Assembly (NCBI RefSeq): GCF_006517255.1
Contig: NZ_CP041185.1
Location: forward strand, 3,658,001-3,722,000
Reading direction: 5' to 3'
DNA from: Janthinobacterium tructae
GTDB lineage: Bacteria > Pseudomonadota > Gammaproteobacteria > Burkholderiales > Burkholderiaceae_D
DNA: 64,000 nucleotides
Both the position numbers and the translations under genes were made by a program. Shown piece by piece: positions 28,408-33,099 of this stretch; positions within the stretch are counted from its first letter, which is position 1; each line of letters begins with the position of its first letter. The notes under the pieces are model-generated. The model was given only the letters and a program-made list of their open reading frames with translations, was not told where the DNA came from and searched no databases.

Positions 28408-29013
28408 TCAGCTGAATTTGAGGCCAAAACGATACCAAGGTAACAGCAGGAATAACGTACAGCTAGGCATCCAGATCAAACCATACATTGCGCCCCGCAT
28501 TCCATATAATGCCCATCCGACCACTACGCCGGTGGCACCGACTAGAACACTGGTTGAATTGATAATTGCGAACGCTTTTACCCGTTGGTGGCCGTTCAAT
28601 ATACCCATTAAAAGATTTGTCAGTGCAATTGTAAACTGTGCAGCGACCAATACCCTTACCACAGTTGCATAGTTATCTGTATTAAATAGCCAACGAGATA
28701 TTTCTGAAGCGCCAACCAGTAAACCCAAAAAAAGCATTAAATAAAATACAAGCGTTATCATGCTAGCAGCCCTTAAATAGCCGTTTAGCTGCACTTCCTC
28801 TTTATTAAACTCGGCAACATATTTGATAATTCCAGTATTAATTCCACCACCAGCCAATATCGTTATCATCGACATCAAGCTCATGAACTGGCCTAGTTGA
28901 CCAAGTCCTTCTGTACCTAAATAAATGGCAACTATTTTTACTATCCGGAGTCCTGCTATCAGTTTTCTTAAAATCGACGCCGCAAAAAGTATACCGACTT
29001 TCAGAAAACACAT
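28408..29013 (-). pseudogene. Truncated WzxE-like flippase
   Basis: Only 201 residues remain, against about 415 for WzxE-type flippases. The N-terminal half aligns well: GLGQLGQFMSLMSMITILAGG, GIIKYVAEFNKEE and VVGWALYGMRGAMYGL. The frame ends at TGA 28408-28410, but reading on in frame gives RRLLPKLDAQ and FVAYSMMIPMTVVTMLQL, which still fits the next flippase helix, before a TAA at 28306-28308. The rest is gone and another gene's tail follows. The start lies 2 bp after the wecE stop. The protein should not be functional. No other flippase is in the window. Confidence 0.85.
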
Positions 29014-29015
29014 GC

Positions 29016-30140
29016 CTAAGAATAAAAAGAAAGTATGGTTTTTGAAATGTAATCTATCTGATCATCACGAAGTTCCGGGAACAACGGTAGACGAAGCAGA
29101 CAATCGGTATATCGATCACTATTTGGCAAGGCACGATTTCCATGCGATTTGGCGAAATACGGACTGCTGTGCAGCGATAAATAGTGGAATACCGCTGAGA
29201 TGCCAGCCTTTTTCAGTGCTTCAATCAGACGAGTACGTTCATCCAGACTACGACATATCAAGTAGAACATGTGCGCATTATTAGTTGCATAGTCAGGGAT
29301 TACCGGCGTGTTGAACCATCCTGCTGCCGCGCCTTCTTTCAAGTTGACTTGATAGCGTGACCATACCCGGCGCCGCTCTGCCTGAATGGTTTCTATCGAT
29401 TCAATTTGGGCATATAAAAAAGCCGCCAGCAAATCAGATGGGAGGAAAGAGGAGCCAACATCAACCCAGCCGTATTTATCGACTTCTCCGCGGAAAAAGG
29501 AGGAACGATTTGTGCCTTTTTCTCGAATTATTTCAGCTCTCAAATCGTGTTTTGGATTATTGACGACCAGCAATCCACCTTCACCACACATGATGTTTTT
29601 TGTTTCATGGAAAGAGAAGGCTGACATGTCGCCGAGGGTACCCAATGGCCTTCCATTGTGAAAGGAATCGATGGCCTGTGCTGCATCCTCCACGATAGCG
29701 ATGCCATGTGTGGCAGAAAGAGATAGAATACGATCCATATCGCAAGCGACACCAGCATAGTGAACAACGACAATTACCTTAGTGCGAGGCGTAATCAGTT
29801 GCTCAATTTCATCCGGTGAAATATTGGGCTGATCGGCCTGACTGTCTGCAAACACCAGTGTTGCACCGCGCAGGGCAAATGCGTTTGCAGTAGAGACAAA
29901 CGTATAGGACGGTAAAATAACCTCATCACCAGGCTGGATATTCAGCAATATCGCTGACATTTCCAATGCATCTGTGCATGAGGTGGTCAGTAACGATTTA
30001 CGCATACCAAGCTTATTCTCAAATAATGCTTGGCATTTTTTTGTAAATTCACCGTCGCCGGATATTTTTCTATTTTCCAGGACTTGTTGAATGTTTTCTA
30101 ATTCTTTGCCGGTAAGAAAAGGCCGATTGAAAGGAATCAT
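29016..30140 (-). CDS. wecE: dTDP-4-amino-4,6-dideoxygalactose transaminase
   Basis: The PLP enzyme (374 residues from this start) converts dTDP-4-keto-6-deoxyglucose and glutamate to dTDP-Fuc4N. It matches the WecE/RffA family: MIPFNRPFLTGKELE at the start, SCTDALEMSAILLNIQPGDEV, PSYTFVSTANAFALRG, VHYAGVACDMD, EDAAQ, catalytic Lys in SFHETKN, and REKGTNRSSFFRGEVDKYGW. M30140 was chosen because family members begin MIPFN; the frame extends to 30203 with no similarity. Its substrate would come from RmlA2 and RmlB2 upstream. Confidence 0.93.
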   Translation of the reverse strand: MIPFNRPFLTGKELENIQQVLENRKISGDGEFTKKCQALFENKLGMRKSLLTTSCTDALEMSAILLNIQPGDEVILPSYTFVSTANAFALRGATLVFADSQADQPNISPDEIEQLITPRTKVIVVVHYAGVACDMDRILSLSATHGIAIVEDAAQAIDSFHNGRPLGTLGDMSAFSFHETKNIMCGEGGLLVVNNPKHDLRAEIIREKGTNRSSFFRGEVDKYGWVDVGSSFLPSDLLAAFLYAQIESIETIQAERRRVWSRYQVNLKEGAAAGWFNTPVIPDYATNNAHMFYLICRSLDERTRLIEALKKAGISAVFHYLSLHSSPYFAKSHGNRALPNSDRYTDCLLRLPLFPELRDDQIDYISKTILSFYS

Positions 30141-30248
30141 TAATTGGACCATTTGTGAAATGTGTAAAGACTCTGAAGAGGTTCGAAGCCTTGGCGGCAC
30201 CATACTTTTTGTGGTGCGACATCGTTTATTTGTGTAGGGACCAGTAAC

Positions 30249-30932: not shown

Positions 30933-30956
30933 CAGTAGAGCAGTAGAGCAGTAGAG
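30933..30956. repeat. Three tandem copies of CAGTAGAG
   Basis: An 8-bp unit is repeated exactly three times between the acetyltransferase pseudogene and rmlA2. The surrounding 220 bp up to 31123 are very AT-rich and hold no gene. Confidence 0.7.
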
Positions 30957-31123
30957 TAATGATTGTTGCTGATATTATTTTTATAGTTACACATTAAATT
31001 AGAAATCTCTCATAAATAAAATCGGATTTCTTTAATCACGTATTTGATGTGGCTGTGAAAATTGAATATCAAAAAACGAGTTAATTTTTTATTGCAAAAT
31101 AAAACTATCAACTGTGAATTTCA

Positions 31124-32023
31124 TTAGTAATTTTTCTTTTCGTTCAATAAACTCAATAAATATTTCCCGTAGGCATTTTTCTTTAATGGTTTGGCTAAAT
31201 TTTCCAATGCGGCTTCATTGATATATGATTTACGATAAGCAATTTCTTCTGGACATGCAACTTTCAAGCCCTGACGATTTTCAATGGTCGCGATAAACTG
31301 ACTGGCTTCCAGCAAAGAATCATGTGTCCCCGTATCTAGCCATGCCATACCACGTCCCATTAACTCGACAGTTAGTTGTTTTTGTTCAAGATAATGACGA
31401 TTCACATCAGTAATTTCCAATTCGCCGCGAGGAGATGGTTTAATATCGGCTGCAATGTCGCAAATCTGGTTGTCATAGAAATACAGACCGGTTACCGCAT
31501 AGTTGGATTTTGGCGTAATCGGTTTTTCTTCAATGCTGACAGCTGTACGATTCGCATCGAATTCCACCACGCCGTAACGCTCCGGATCGTTTACATGATA
31601 AGCAAATACCGTTGCGCCACTGCTTTGCTCCGAAGCGTTGCGCAACTTGGATTCCAGGTCGGTACCATAAAAAATATTGTCACCTAAAATTAATGCCGAT
31701 GGAGAATCGCCGAGAAATTCACGGCCAATAATAAATGCCTGTGCAAGACCATCCGGACTAGGTTGCACTGCATAGGTGAGACTAATGCCCCATTGGCTAC
31801 CATCGCCAAGCAATTCACGAAAACGTGGCGTATCCTGCGGTGTCGAAATGATCAGAATCTCACGAATACCGGCCAGCATCAGCGTGGTTAGCGGGTAATA
31901 GATCATCGGTTTGTCGTACACAGGTAACAACTGTTTAGACACAGAAATAGTGACGGGATACAAGCGTGTGCCAGAGCCACCTGCAAGAATAATGCCTTTA
32001 CGTTGTTTCACCTGTGTCATCAA
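31124..32023 (-). CDS. rfbA: Glucose-1-phosphate thymidylyltransferase, copy 2
   Basis: This 299-residue protein has all standard motifs: GGSGTRLYPVT, SKQLLPVYDKPMIYYPL, LILGDNIFYG and GRGMAWLDTGTHDSLLEA. It makes dTDP-glucose. It overlaps rmlB2 by 4 bp (ATGA), so they are coupled. There is no rfbC or rfbD beside it; the downstream order (acetyltransferase, wecE, wzx) points to dTDP-Fuc4N synthesis. The second codon is also Met. Confidence 0.95.
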   Translation of the reverse strand: MMTQVKQRKGIILAGGSGTRLYPVTISVSKQLLPVYDKPMIYYPLTTLMLAGIREILIISTPQDTPRFRELLGDGSQWGISLTYAVQPSPDGLAQAFIIGREFLGDSPSALILGDNIFYGTDLESKLRNASEQSSGATVFAYHVNDPERYGVVEFDANRTAVSIEEKPITPKSNYAVTGLYFYDNQICDIAADIKPSPRGELEITDVNRHYLEQKQLTVELMGRGMAWLDTGTHDSLLEASQFIATIENRQGLKVACPEEIAYRKSYINEAALENLAKPLKKNAYGKYLLSLLNEKKNY

Positions 32024-33099
32024 ACTGCTTCCTGAGCGTTGCGTTGATCATAATTTTTTTCCAGCCAATGCGCATAGTCTCCCGACTGTACGTTACGCAC
32101 CCATTCCTGATTGTCGAGATACCACTGTACAGTTTTCTGGATACCGCTTTCAAACGTTTCCGCCGGTTTCCAACCCAGTTCGCGCTCGATCTTACGCGCA
32201 TCGATTGCATAGCGGCGATCATGGCCAGGCCGATCAGCGACATAGGTGACTTGCGTGCGATAGCTTGTGCCGTCCTCTTTTGGCGACAGGCGATCGAGAA
32301 TATCGCATAGTGTGTGAACCACATCCAGATTAGCTTTTTCGTTCCAGCCACCGATGTTGTAGGTTTCACCAATGCGACCATCTGCGAGCACGCGGCGGAT
32401 TGCCGAGCAGTGATCGCTAACATACAGCCAGTCCCGTATCTGCTGGCCGTCGCCGTAAATAGGCAACGGTTTACCGGCGCGCGCATTGGCGATGACCAAC
32501 GGAATTAATTTTTCCGGGAAGTGATATGAACCATAATTATTTGAGCAATTAGTCGTCAGGGTTGGCATGCCATAGGTATGATGGTAGGCGCGTACCAGAT
32601 GGTCTGATGCTGCTTTACTAGCGGAATAAGGACTGTTAGGCGTGTATGGTGTTGTTTCGGTAAACGCCGCATCATTCGGGCCCAGCGTACCGTAGACTTC
32701 ATCTGTCGATACATGCAGGAAGCGAAATGCTGCCTGCTCCTCTATTGGCAGCGCAGACCAATAGCCGCGTGCGGCTTCCAGTAGGCTGAACGTACCATTG
32801 ATATTGGTGGACACGAATTCGCCTGGGCCGTGGATGGAACGGTCGACATGGCTCTCTGCTGCGAAATGCACGATGGCGCGAGGACGGTGACTGGCGAGCA
32901 GTGACGCAACCAGGGCTGTGTCACAGATGTCGCCCTTGATAAAAATGTGCCGTTTGTCCTGGTTTAATGTCACCAGATTATTCATATTGCCCGCATAGGT
33001 CAACTTATCGAGATTGATGATCGGCTCATCGGTCTGCGCAAGCCAGTCAAGTACAAAATTTGAACCAATAAAACCCGCGCCGCCGGTGACTAAAATCAT
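32020..33099 (-). CDS. rfbB: dTDP-glucose 4,6-dehydratase, copy 2
   Basis: The 359-residue enzyme has the cofactor motif TGGAGFIGS, the intact catalytic loop STDEVYG (Thr132-Asp-Glu) and YSASK. It forms dTDP-4-keto-6-deoxyglucose, the branch point to dTDP-Fuc4N by WecE. It is the first gene of the rffGHCA-wzxE-like block. The 282 bp upstream (33100-33381) hold no gene and are AT-rich, so the block's promoter probably lies there. Confidence 0.95.
   Translation of the reverse strand: MILVTGGAGFIGSNFVLDWLAQTDEPIINLDKLTYAGNMNNLVTLNQDKRHIFIKGDICDTALVASLLASHRPRAIVHFAAESHVDRSIHGPGEFVSTNINGTFSLLEAARGYWSALPIEEQAAFRFLHVSTDEVYGTLGPNDAAFTETTPYTPNSPYSASKAASDHLVRAYHHTYGMPTLTTNCSNNYGSYHFPEKLIPLVIANARAGKPLPIYGDGQQIRDWLYVSDHCSAIRRVLADGRIGETYNIGGWNEKANLDVVHTLCDILDRLSPKEDGTSYRTQVTYVADRPGHDRRYAIDARKIERELGWKPAETFESGIQKTVQWYLDNQEWVRNVQSGDYAHWLEKNYDQRNAQEAV

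Follow-up and report, generated by a model that had tools for sequence, protein, structure and literature searches.

A decaying second version of a trhO-linked surface-polysaccharide cluster in Janthinobacterium tructae, probably acquired from a relative

How does Janthinobacterium tructae come to carry a run of genes in the order of the Escherichia coli enterobacterial common antigen (ECA) genes, with some of them broken and others open? The run lies within a 64,000-nucleotide stretch of the single-contig 6.31 Mb genome (positions 3,658,001–3,722,000; hereafter the window, whose own numbering is used below). Read along the minus strand, the run consists of rffG, rffH, a ruined rffC, wecE and a wzxE that is cut short, in the E. 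coli order. This confirms the order, and the tally of three intact genes (rffG, rffH, wecE) and two broken ones (rffC, wzxE), given in an initial annotation made from the sequence alone, which took 28408–33099 for an enterobacterial-type module that had arrived as a unit and was being lost. That interval stops short at both ends. The five genes are part of a 12-gene surface-polysaccharide cluster at 20879–33648, and the damage includes a glycosyltransferase gene. We consider it likely that a trhO-linked, O-antigen-like cluster of twelve genes is represented here by a second, diverged version, which was acquired from a relative and decayed under cover of an intact counterpart in the same chromosome.

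All genes of the cluster are on the minus strand. The open rffG-type dTDP-glucose 4,6-dehydratase gene (32020–33099) scores 503.3 bits against a cut-off of 365.1 for TIGR01181, and the open rffH-type glucose-1-phosphate thymidylyltransferase gene (31124–32023) 520.9 bits against 360.65 for TIGR01207; neither reaches the threshold of its closer, enterobacterial model, PRK10084 for rffG (552.4 vs. 649) and PRK15480 for rffH (525.3 vs. 588). The wecE/rffA gene for dTDP-4-keto-6-deoxyglucose aminotransferase is also open (29016–30140; the listed open reading frame extends to 30203), and its product passes both TIGR02379 (493.7 vs. 434.85) and PRK11706 (548.5 vs. 375). The 5′ part of wzxE (28320–29013, open to 28411) encodes residues 1–231 of 419 with one internal stop (tblastn identity 74.5%); this flippase fragment matches positions 1–185 of 416 in the WzxE model PRK15099 at 116.9 bits (cut-off 325). 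The remnant of the rffC/wecD-type N-acetyltransferase gene occupies 30143–30854. Its pieces alone match no acetyltransferase model (two pieces tested gave no NCBIfam match), and E. coli RffC as a query finds no match in the window, yet the pieces align piecewise to the intact RffC encoded elsewhere in the genome, two joined pieces with an E value of 4e-46. Model searches, the check suggested at the outset, thus uphold the identities of WecE and the WzxE fragment, and that of RffC is upheld only through relatives.

The lesions are concentrated in three genes. Relative to the intact gene, the rffC remnant contains three premature stops and four frame-changing indels, making seven lesions in about 720 bases; a second alignment has six single-base gaps in all. 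In wzxE, one stop is followed by a junction at 28320, where WzxE residue 231 abuts residues 326–423 of the 423-residue glycosyltransferase encoded next (28026–28319; tblastn identity 55%, E 2e-28). The junction is best read as a single deletion that would have removed the 3′ part of wzxE together with the 5′ part of the glycosyltransferase gene, most of which is lost. The other nine frames, about 9.8 kb together, are open. Two frame-changing gaps each in the wzy-position and dehydratase genes, and one stop each in rffG and the wzy-position gene, were left out of the lesion count, since these frames remain open; they probably reflect differing protein ends.

An intact counterpart is present in the same chromosome. 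Searching the genome with its own WecE returned a second wecE (84–85% amino-acid identity) at 3.17–3.19 Mb, in a stretch (locus L005, continued in L087) that carries on one strand trhO, rffG, rffH, the genes for RffC, WecE and WzxE, a glycosyltransferase gene, a putative polymerase gene, an epimerase-like gene, a second glycosyltransferase gene, another epimerase-like gene, and genes for an initiating sugar transferase and a PF02719 dehydratase. RffC (242 residues), WzxE (419) and the first glycosyltransferase (423) are full length here. The intact WzxE exceeds the PRK15099 cut-off (340.4 vs. 325 bits), and the intact RffC lies under those of TIGR02382 (60.9 vs. 195.1) and PRK10975 (79.8 vs. 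219), which are still its two best models. The window copy is colinear with this locus over the same twelve genes, starting at the trhO end and finishing with the PF02719 dehydratase, at 68–78% DNA identity (87% in the trhO piece), and the products of the nine open genes share about 68–87% of their amino acids between the two copies. One cluster is therefore complete at another chromosomal site, and the other lacks a working rffC, wzxE and first glycosyltransferase gene. With full-length versions of the lost genes encoded elsewhere, the genome can probably still acetylate and flip; the earlier statement that dTDP-Fuc4N could be neither acetylated nor flipped was made of the window locus, and would hold for that locus on its own. 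The suggested comparison with congeners also yielded an intact version: one of 40 genus genomes searched, G030, carries an ortholog of the trhO-linked cluster (L118), 95.5% identical in DNA over 21.9 kb.

The two copies in J. tructae are old. Fourfold-degenerate sites agree at 26–46% in 10 gene pairs, the wzxE piece among them. We used no dN/dS value, as YN00 gave none for 6 of the 10 pairs because synonymous sites are near saturation. The ruined rffC retains 65.8% DNA identity to the intact gene, much like the open wzy-position gene (64.7%) and an open epimerase gene (65.5%), which suggests that rffC was probably conserved for most of the divergence and broke late.

WecE, the only protein of the cluster placed in a tree, was analyzed among 69 proteins: 65 of 120 listed relatives (drawn from 2467 matches, with 8000 candidates scored), both copies from this genome, that of G030, and that of E. 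coli. The window WecE is sister to the metagenomic protein P0069 (95% identity; starred branches), whereas the other copy of this genome groups with G030 and P0070, and then with P0071 and P0073. Most rows of the tree are unnamed; the names in the wider clade of 62 are limited to Janthinobacterium, Paraherbaspirillum, Collimonas and a Legionellales assembly, and just outside fall Massilia, Paraburkholderia and a gammaproteobacterial assembly. The named rows closest to the window copy are Oxalobacteraceae. E. coli WecE, the sole enterobacterial row, sits on a very long branch far from the window clade. This pattern probably reflects a second allele acquired from a relative and not a recent duplicate. 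A close WecE occurs in 2 of the 40 genus genomes, with no other above 53% identity, and matches at E 1e-140 or better are confined to 5 of 392 family genomes, including this one and G030. For the metagenomic relatives P0002 (RffC, 241 residues), P0069 (WecE) and P0191 (WzxE, 422 residues), the source contig is 15213 bases long in each case, and an undamaged sister module probably exists.

Rates of change since the split from these metagenomic sisters differ between the genes. The window lineage has accumulated 23 changes in wzxE and its sister 4 (p = 3e-4), with 3 breaks in 53 conserved columns. The four open pieces of rffC together show 26 changes against 5, and 6 breaks in 49 conserved columns; adjacent pieces overlap by up to 25 bases, and the sister used was P0002. 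For wecE the counts are 10 and 3 (p = 0.09), and 1 of 173 conserved columns is broken. This is the behaviour of released genes for rffC and wzxE and of a mostly constrained one for wecE, a pattern that supports cover in trans by the intact locus. The initial annotation's view that genes are being lost here is upheld. Nearest of all to the ruined rffC pieces is P0003 (200 residues, 10 contigs), which starts about 40 residues later than P0002 and was left out of the rate test; it may represent the same decay at an earlier point, or an error in gene calling.

The site itself retains a trace of where the cluster came from. The window cluster sits between gdh and a DUF4197 gene, beside wza, wzz and yjbH, and its G+C content of 33–52% (1-kb steps) departs from the 60–69% of most of the outer window. 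At 33481–33648 lies the 3′ end of a trhO gene (residues 286–341 of 352; tblastn 78.6% amino-acid identity, E 5e-23), 86.7% identical in DNA over 158 bp to the trhO adjoining the intact cluster. The remnant occupies the place that trhO holds in the native cluster, and the window copy therefore derives from a trhO-linked locus; trhO is present in 38 of the 40 genus genomes. Beyond the remnant, adjoining this border, is an IS1595-family element (34108–35170, minus strand; PF12762, 59.1 bits) with an open transposase gene (34110–35126). Its bounds were set by aligning its copies, of which the genome has three more at full length (92–99% amino-acid identity) in addition to three partial matches.

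In the congener G026, DNA matching the flanks of the window locus at 74–95% identity (74–78% in yjbH and one 299-base piece, 81–95% elsewhere) occurs without the twelve genes and without rmlBACD (13688–17175), and the counterparts of window positions 19833 and 38975 are about 120 bases apart. G026 has yjbH before wza and wzz, and the window (35674–42191) has it after them; with the flanks otherwise conserved, we read this as a local rearrangement within the hotspot. At the threshold used, the DUF4197 gene was found in 28 genus genomes, 26 of which have gdh on the same contig. The interval between the two genes is below 10 kb in 8 of these and 25–68 kb in 18 (about 55 kb in G028 and about 68 kb in G030, which has a 69% Wza relative), a spread that marks the site as a variable hotspot.

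The remaining open genes may belong to a Wzx/Wzy-dependent, O-antigen-like system. Beyond the glycosyltransferase remnant, a hydrophobic protein in the wzy position (26789–27880; 71% amino-acid identity over 342 residues to L005 14663–15823) is a putative polymerase by position; in model searches of the window and intact-cluster proteins, it matched no family above cut-off. Next are genes for an NAD-dependent sugar epimerase/dehydratase-like protein (25736–26716; 73% to L005 15813–16805, related families below cut-off), a GT4-type glycosyltransferase (24519–25685; PF00534, 76% to the intact copy), an NAD-dependent sugar epimerase-like protein (23491–24450; 76%) and the initiating undecaprenyl-phosphate sugar-phosphate transferase (22947–23513; PF02397, 86%). 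The PF02719 polysaccharide-biosynthesis dehydratase (20879–22810; 82% to L087 1722–3611) marks the distal end of the shared cluster. At its other end, RffG and RffH are 87% and 87–88% identical to the intact copies, and WecE is 85% identical. Of the components expected of a Wzx/Wzy-dependent cluster, PF02397, PF00534 and WzxE are represented, and the polymerase has a candidate by position.

Taken together, these data lead us to propose that a relative carrying the trhO-linked cluster was the donor, and that its copy landed in another polysaccharide hotspot. RffH, RffG, WecE and RffC would originally have made dTDP-Fuc4NAc; the sugar transferase and glycosyltransferases would have built a repeat unit with Fuc4NAc on undecaprenyl phosphate, and WzxE would have flipped it. 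Now that rffC, wzxE and one glycosyltransferase gene are dead, the window locus alone could make dTDP-Fuc4N at most, and the counterpart at 3.17–3.19 Mb probably supplies the three lost functions in trans, making the losses tolerable. Since the intact locus encodes the missing steps, such cover would be the simplest account. The transfer and its route, the sugar product and the expression of the remaining genes are elements that we infer.

Several points weigh against acquisition from a relative followed by sheltered decay. The direction of the transfer is likewise one we infer, and an old duplication with both copies since lost in most congeners is conceivable, although the 38 of 40 genus genomes lacking a close WecE count against it. 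The substrate assigned to RffC is presumptive, with the intact protein far under the TIGR02382 and PRK10975 cut-offs. The G026 site is not a clean pre-insertion site, as yjbH, wza and wzz are also arranged differently there, and a shared contig for P0002, P0069 and P0191 follows solely from the equal size of 15213 bases. Finally, the rate test for wecE is non-significant and tilts as the dead genes do, so wecE may be relaxing as well.

This last point leads to the alternative that survives best, in which the origin is the same but the whole window cluster is dead and its nine open genes are merely unhit so far. It overlaps the explanation we prefer and differs from it in the last step. Two key steps and one glycosyltransferase are gone, wecE has changed more than its sister, and the IS1595-family element sits on the upstream side of the cluster, all of which such a reading would accommodate. 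However, seven lesions in rffC and none closing the nine frames is far from what simultaneous release would produce, and a single break in the conserved columns of WecE also speaks for continued constraint. We regard death of the entire cluster as a possibility to be taken seriously, if clearly the lesser one. It is rather unlikely, by our estimate, that the two loci instead form a split system, in which the window locus borrows the acetyltransferase, flippase and first glycosyltransferase from the trhO-linked locus, the clusters are mutually dependent, and the window glycosyltransferase, putative polymerase and epimerases are kept, adding a second or hybrid glycan.

If the trhO-linked cluster had been duplicated within this genome and its redundant copy had then decayed, the identical gene order and the trhO tail on the window copy would be accounted for. 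Yet the fourfold-degenerate sites are near saturation, the window WecE pairs in the tree with a metagenomic protein while the in-genome copy falls in a different clade, and the intact cluster is far closer to its G030 counterpart (95.5%) than to the window copy (68–78%). The fourfold sites and the WecE tree lead us to reject a recent duplication, and we hold duplication within the genome to be improbable in general.

Least probable is that the Enterobacterales supplied a five-gene Fuc4NAc module in one piece that is now being lost, since the one attraction of this view, a gene order identical to E. coli rffG-rffH-rffC-wecE-wzxE, is offset by a unit of twelve genes whose members after wzxE lack ECA relatives, by the occurrence of rffC-wecE-wzxE in three other family loci (L007, L176 and L177), and by low identities to E. 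coli, namely 52% for the window WecE (vs. 95% and 86% to its nearest relatives), 33% for the WzxE fragment, 62–65% for RffG and RffH, and 37% and 26% for the intact WzxE and RffC. We therefore reject an enterobacterial origin on these identities and on the WecE tree, in which E. coli is the only enterobacterial row; of the initial annotation's proposal, arrival from elsewhere probably stands, and the enterobacterial type and the five-gene unit give way to twelve genes and a trhO border. In the same gene-order survey (85 loci, some too short to show more), wecE-wzxE was also seen in L178, and a weak pair with a 26% flippase in L047 from the Chitinophagaceae; given the recurrence of the order in the family, no recent enterobacterial donor is needed within it. 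A Bacteroidota origin was rejected as well. A locus scan with two peptide patterns, by which enterobacteria would be missed, confirmed and kept 80 of 140 loci; by their titles, 76 are Bacteroidota-type, two Balneolaceae and one Lachnospiraceae, and the last is Oxalobacteraceae. In those first 79, WecE identity is 53–66%, indicating distant kin, and an RffC-like match occurs in 5, directly before wecE in 2.

Two side observations concern the surrounding hotspot and genome. The rmlBACD genes occupy the same hotspot as the window cluster and have no match in the G026 stretch compared; with both polysaccharide clusters counted, the genome holds at least three rmlB/rmlA-type pairs. On the minus strand at 35674–38685, one open frame combines a YjbH domain with a C-terminal PAP2 phosphatase domain. 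G026 aligns to it over its full length in a single frame (76%), and the fusion looks real and common to both genomes.

The reference system for the five genes is the ECA cluster of E. coli K-12, wecA-wzzE-wecBC-rffGH-rffC-wecE-wzxE-wecF-wzyE-rffM, with RffH, RffG, WecE and RffC as the enzymes of dTDP-Fuc4NAc synthesis and WzxE as the flippase of the lipid-linked unit (PMC7439462). The likeness lies in the order and predicted enzymology of rffG-rffH-rffC-wecE-wzxE, intact in L005 and with rffC and wzxE broken in the window. The ECA polymer is built from GlcNAc, ManNAcA and Fuc4NAc. Unlike the ECA cluster, both J. tructae loci have trhO at their border, encode a PF02397 initiating sugar transferase, and include two additional epimerase-like genes along with one for a PF02719 dehydratase. 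Twelve L005 proteins (trhO to the sugar transferase, PF02719 dehydratase excluded) gave no significant blastp match to WecA, WzzE, WecB, WecC, WecF, WzyE or WecG (best E 0.19), nor did these seven give a significant tblastn match in the whole window, to which that search was confined (best E 0.078). Judged by its gene content, the window cluster is not an ECA cluster. The ECA system is informative about consequence: loss of all Wzx flippases is lethal in E. coli K-12 through build-up of lipid III (PMC7439462), and the order in which genes die when a Wzx/Wzy cluster is redundant is relevant to this known hazard, the stalling of lipid-linked intermediates.

A closer parallel is offered by the O-antigen clusters of the Oxalobacteraceae, several of which occur separately in a genome: two to four are reported in each of four Janthinobacterium species, three of which also have rfbABCD duplicated (PMC9834719). 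The main text of that study does not contain the terms wecE, rffC or transaminase, and the passages compared here describe neither a decaying second copy nor a trhO border. Decay of a second allele of a polysaccharide cluster is a known kind of event. J. tructae resembles the published genomes in carrying multiple clusters, and it adds a clear case of a surface-polysaccharide cluster that sits in a second hotspot, still joined to a fragment of its former border, and has lost genes an intact relative can probably replace.

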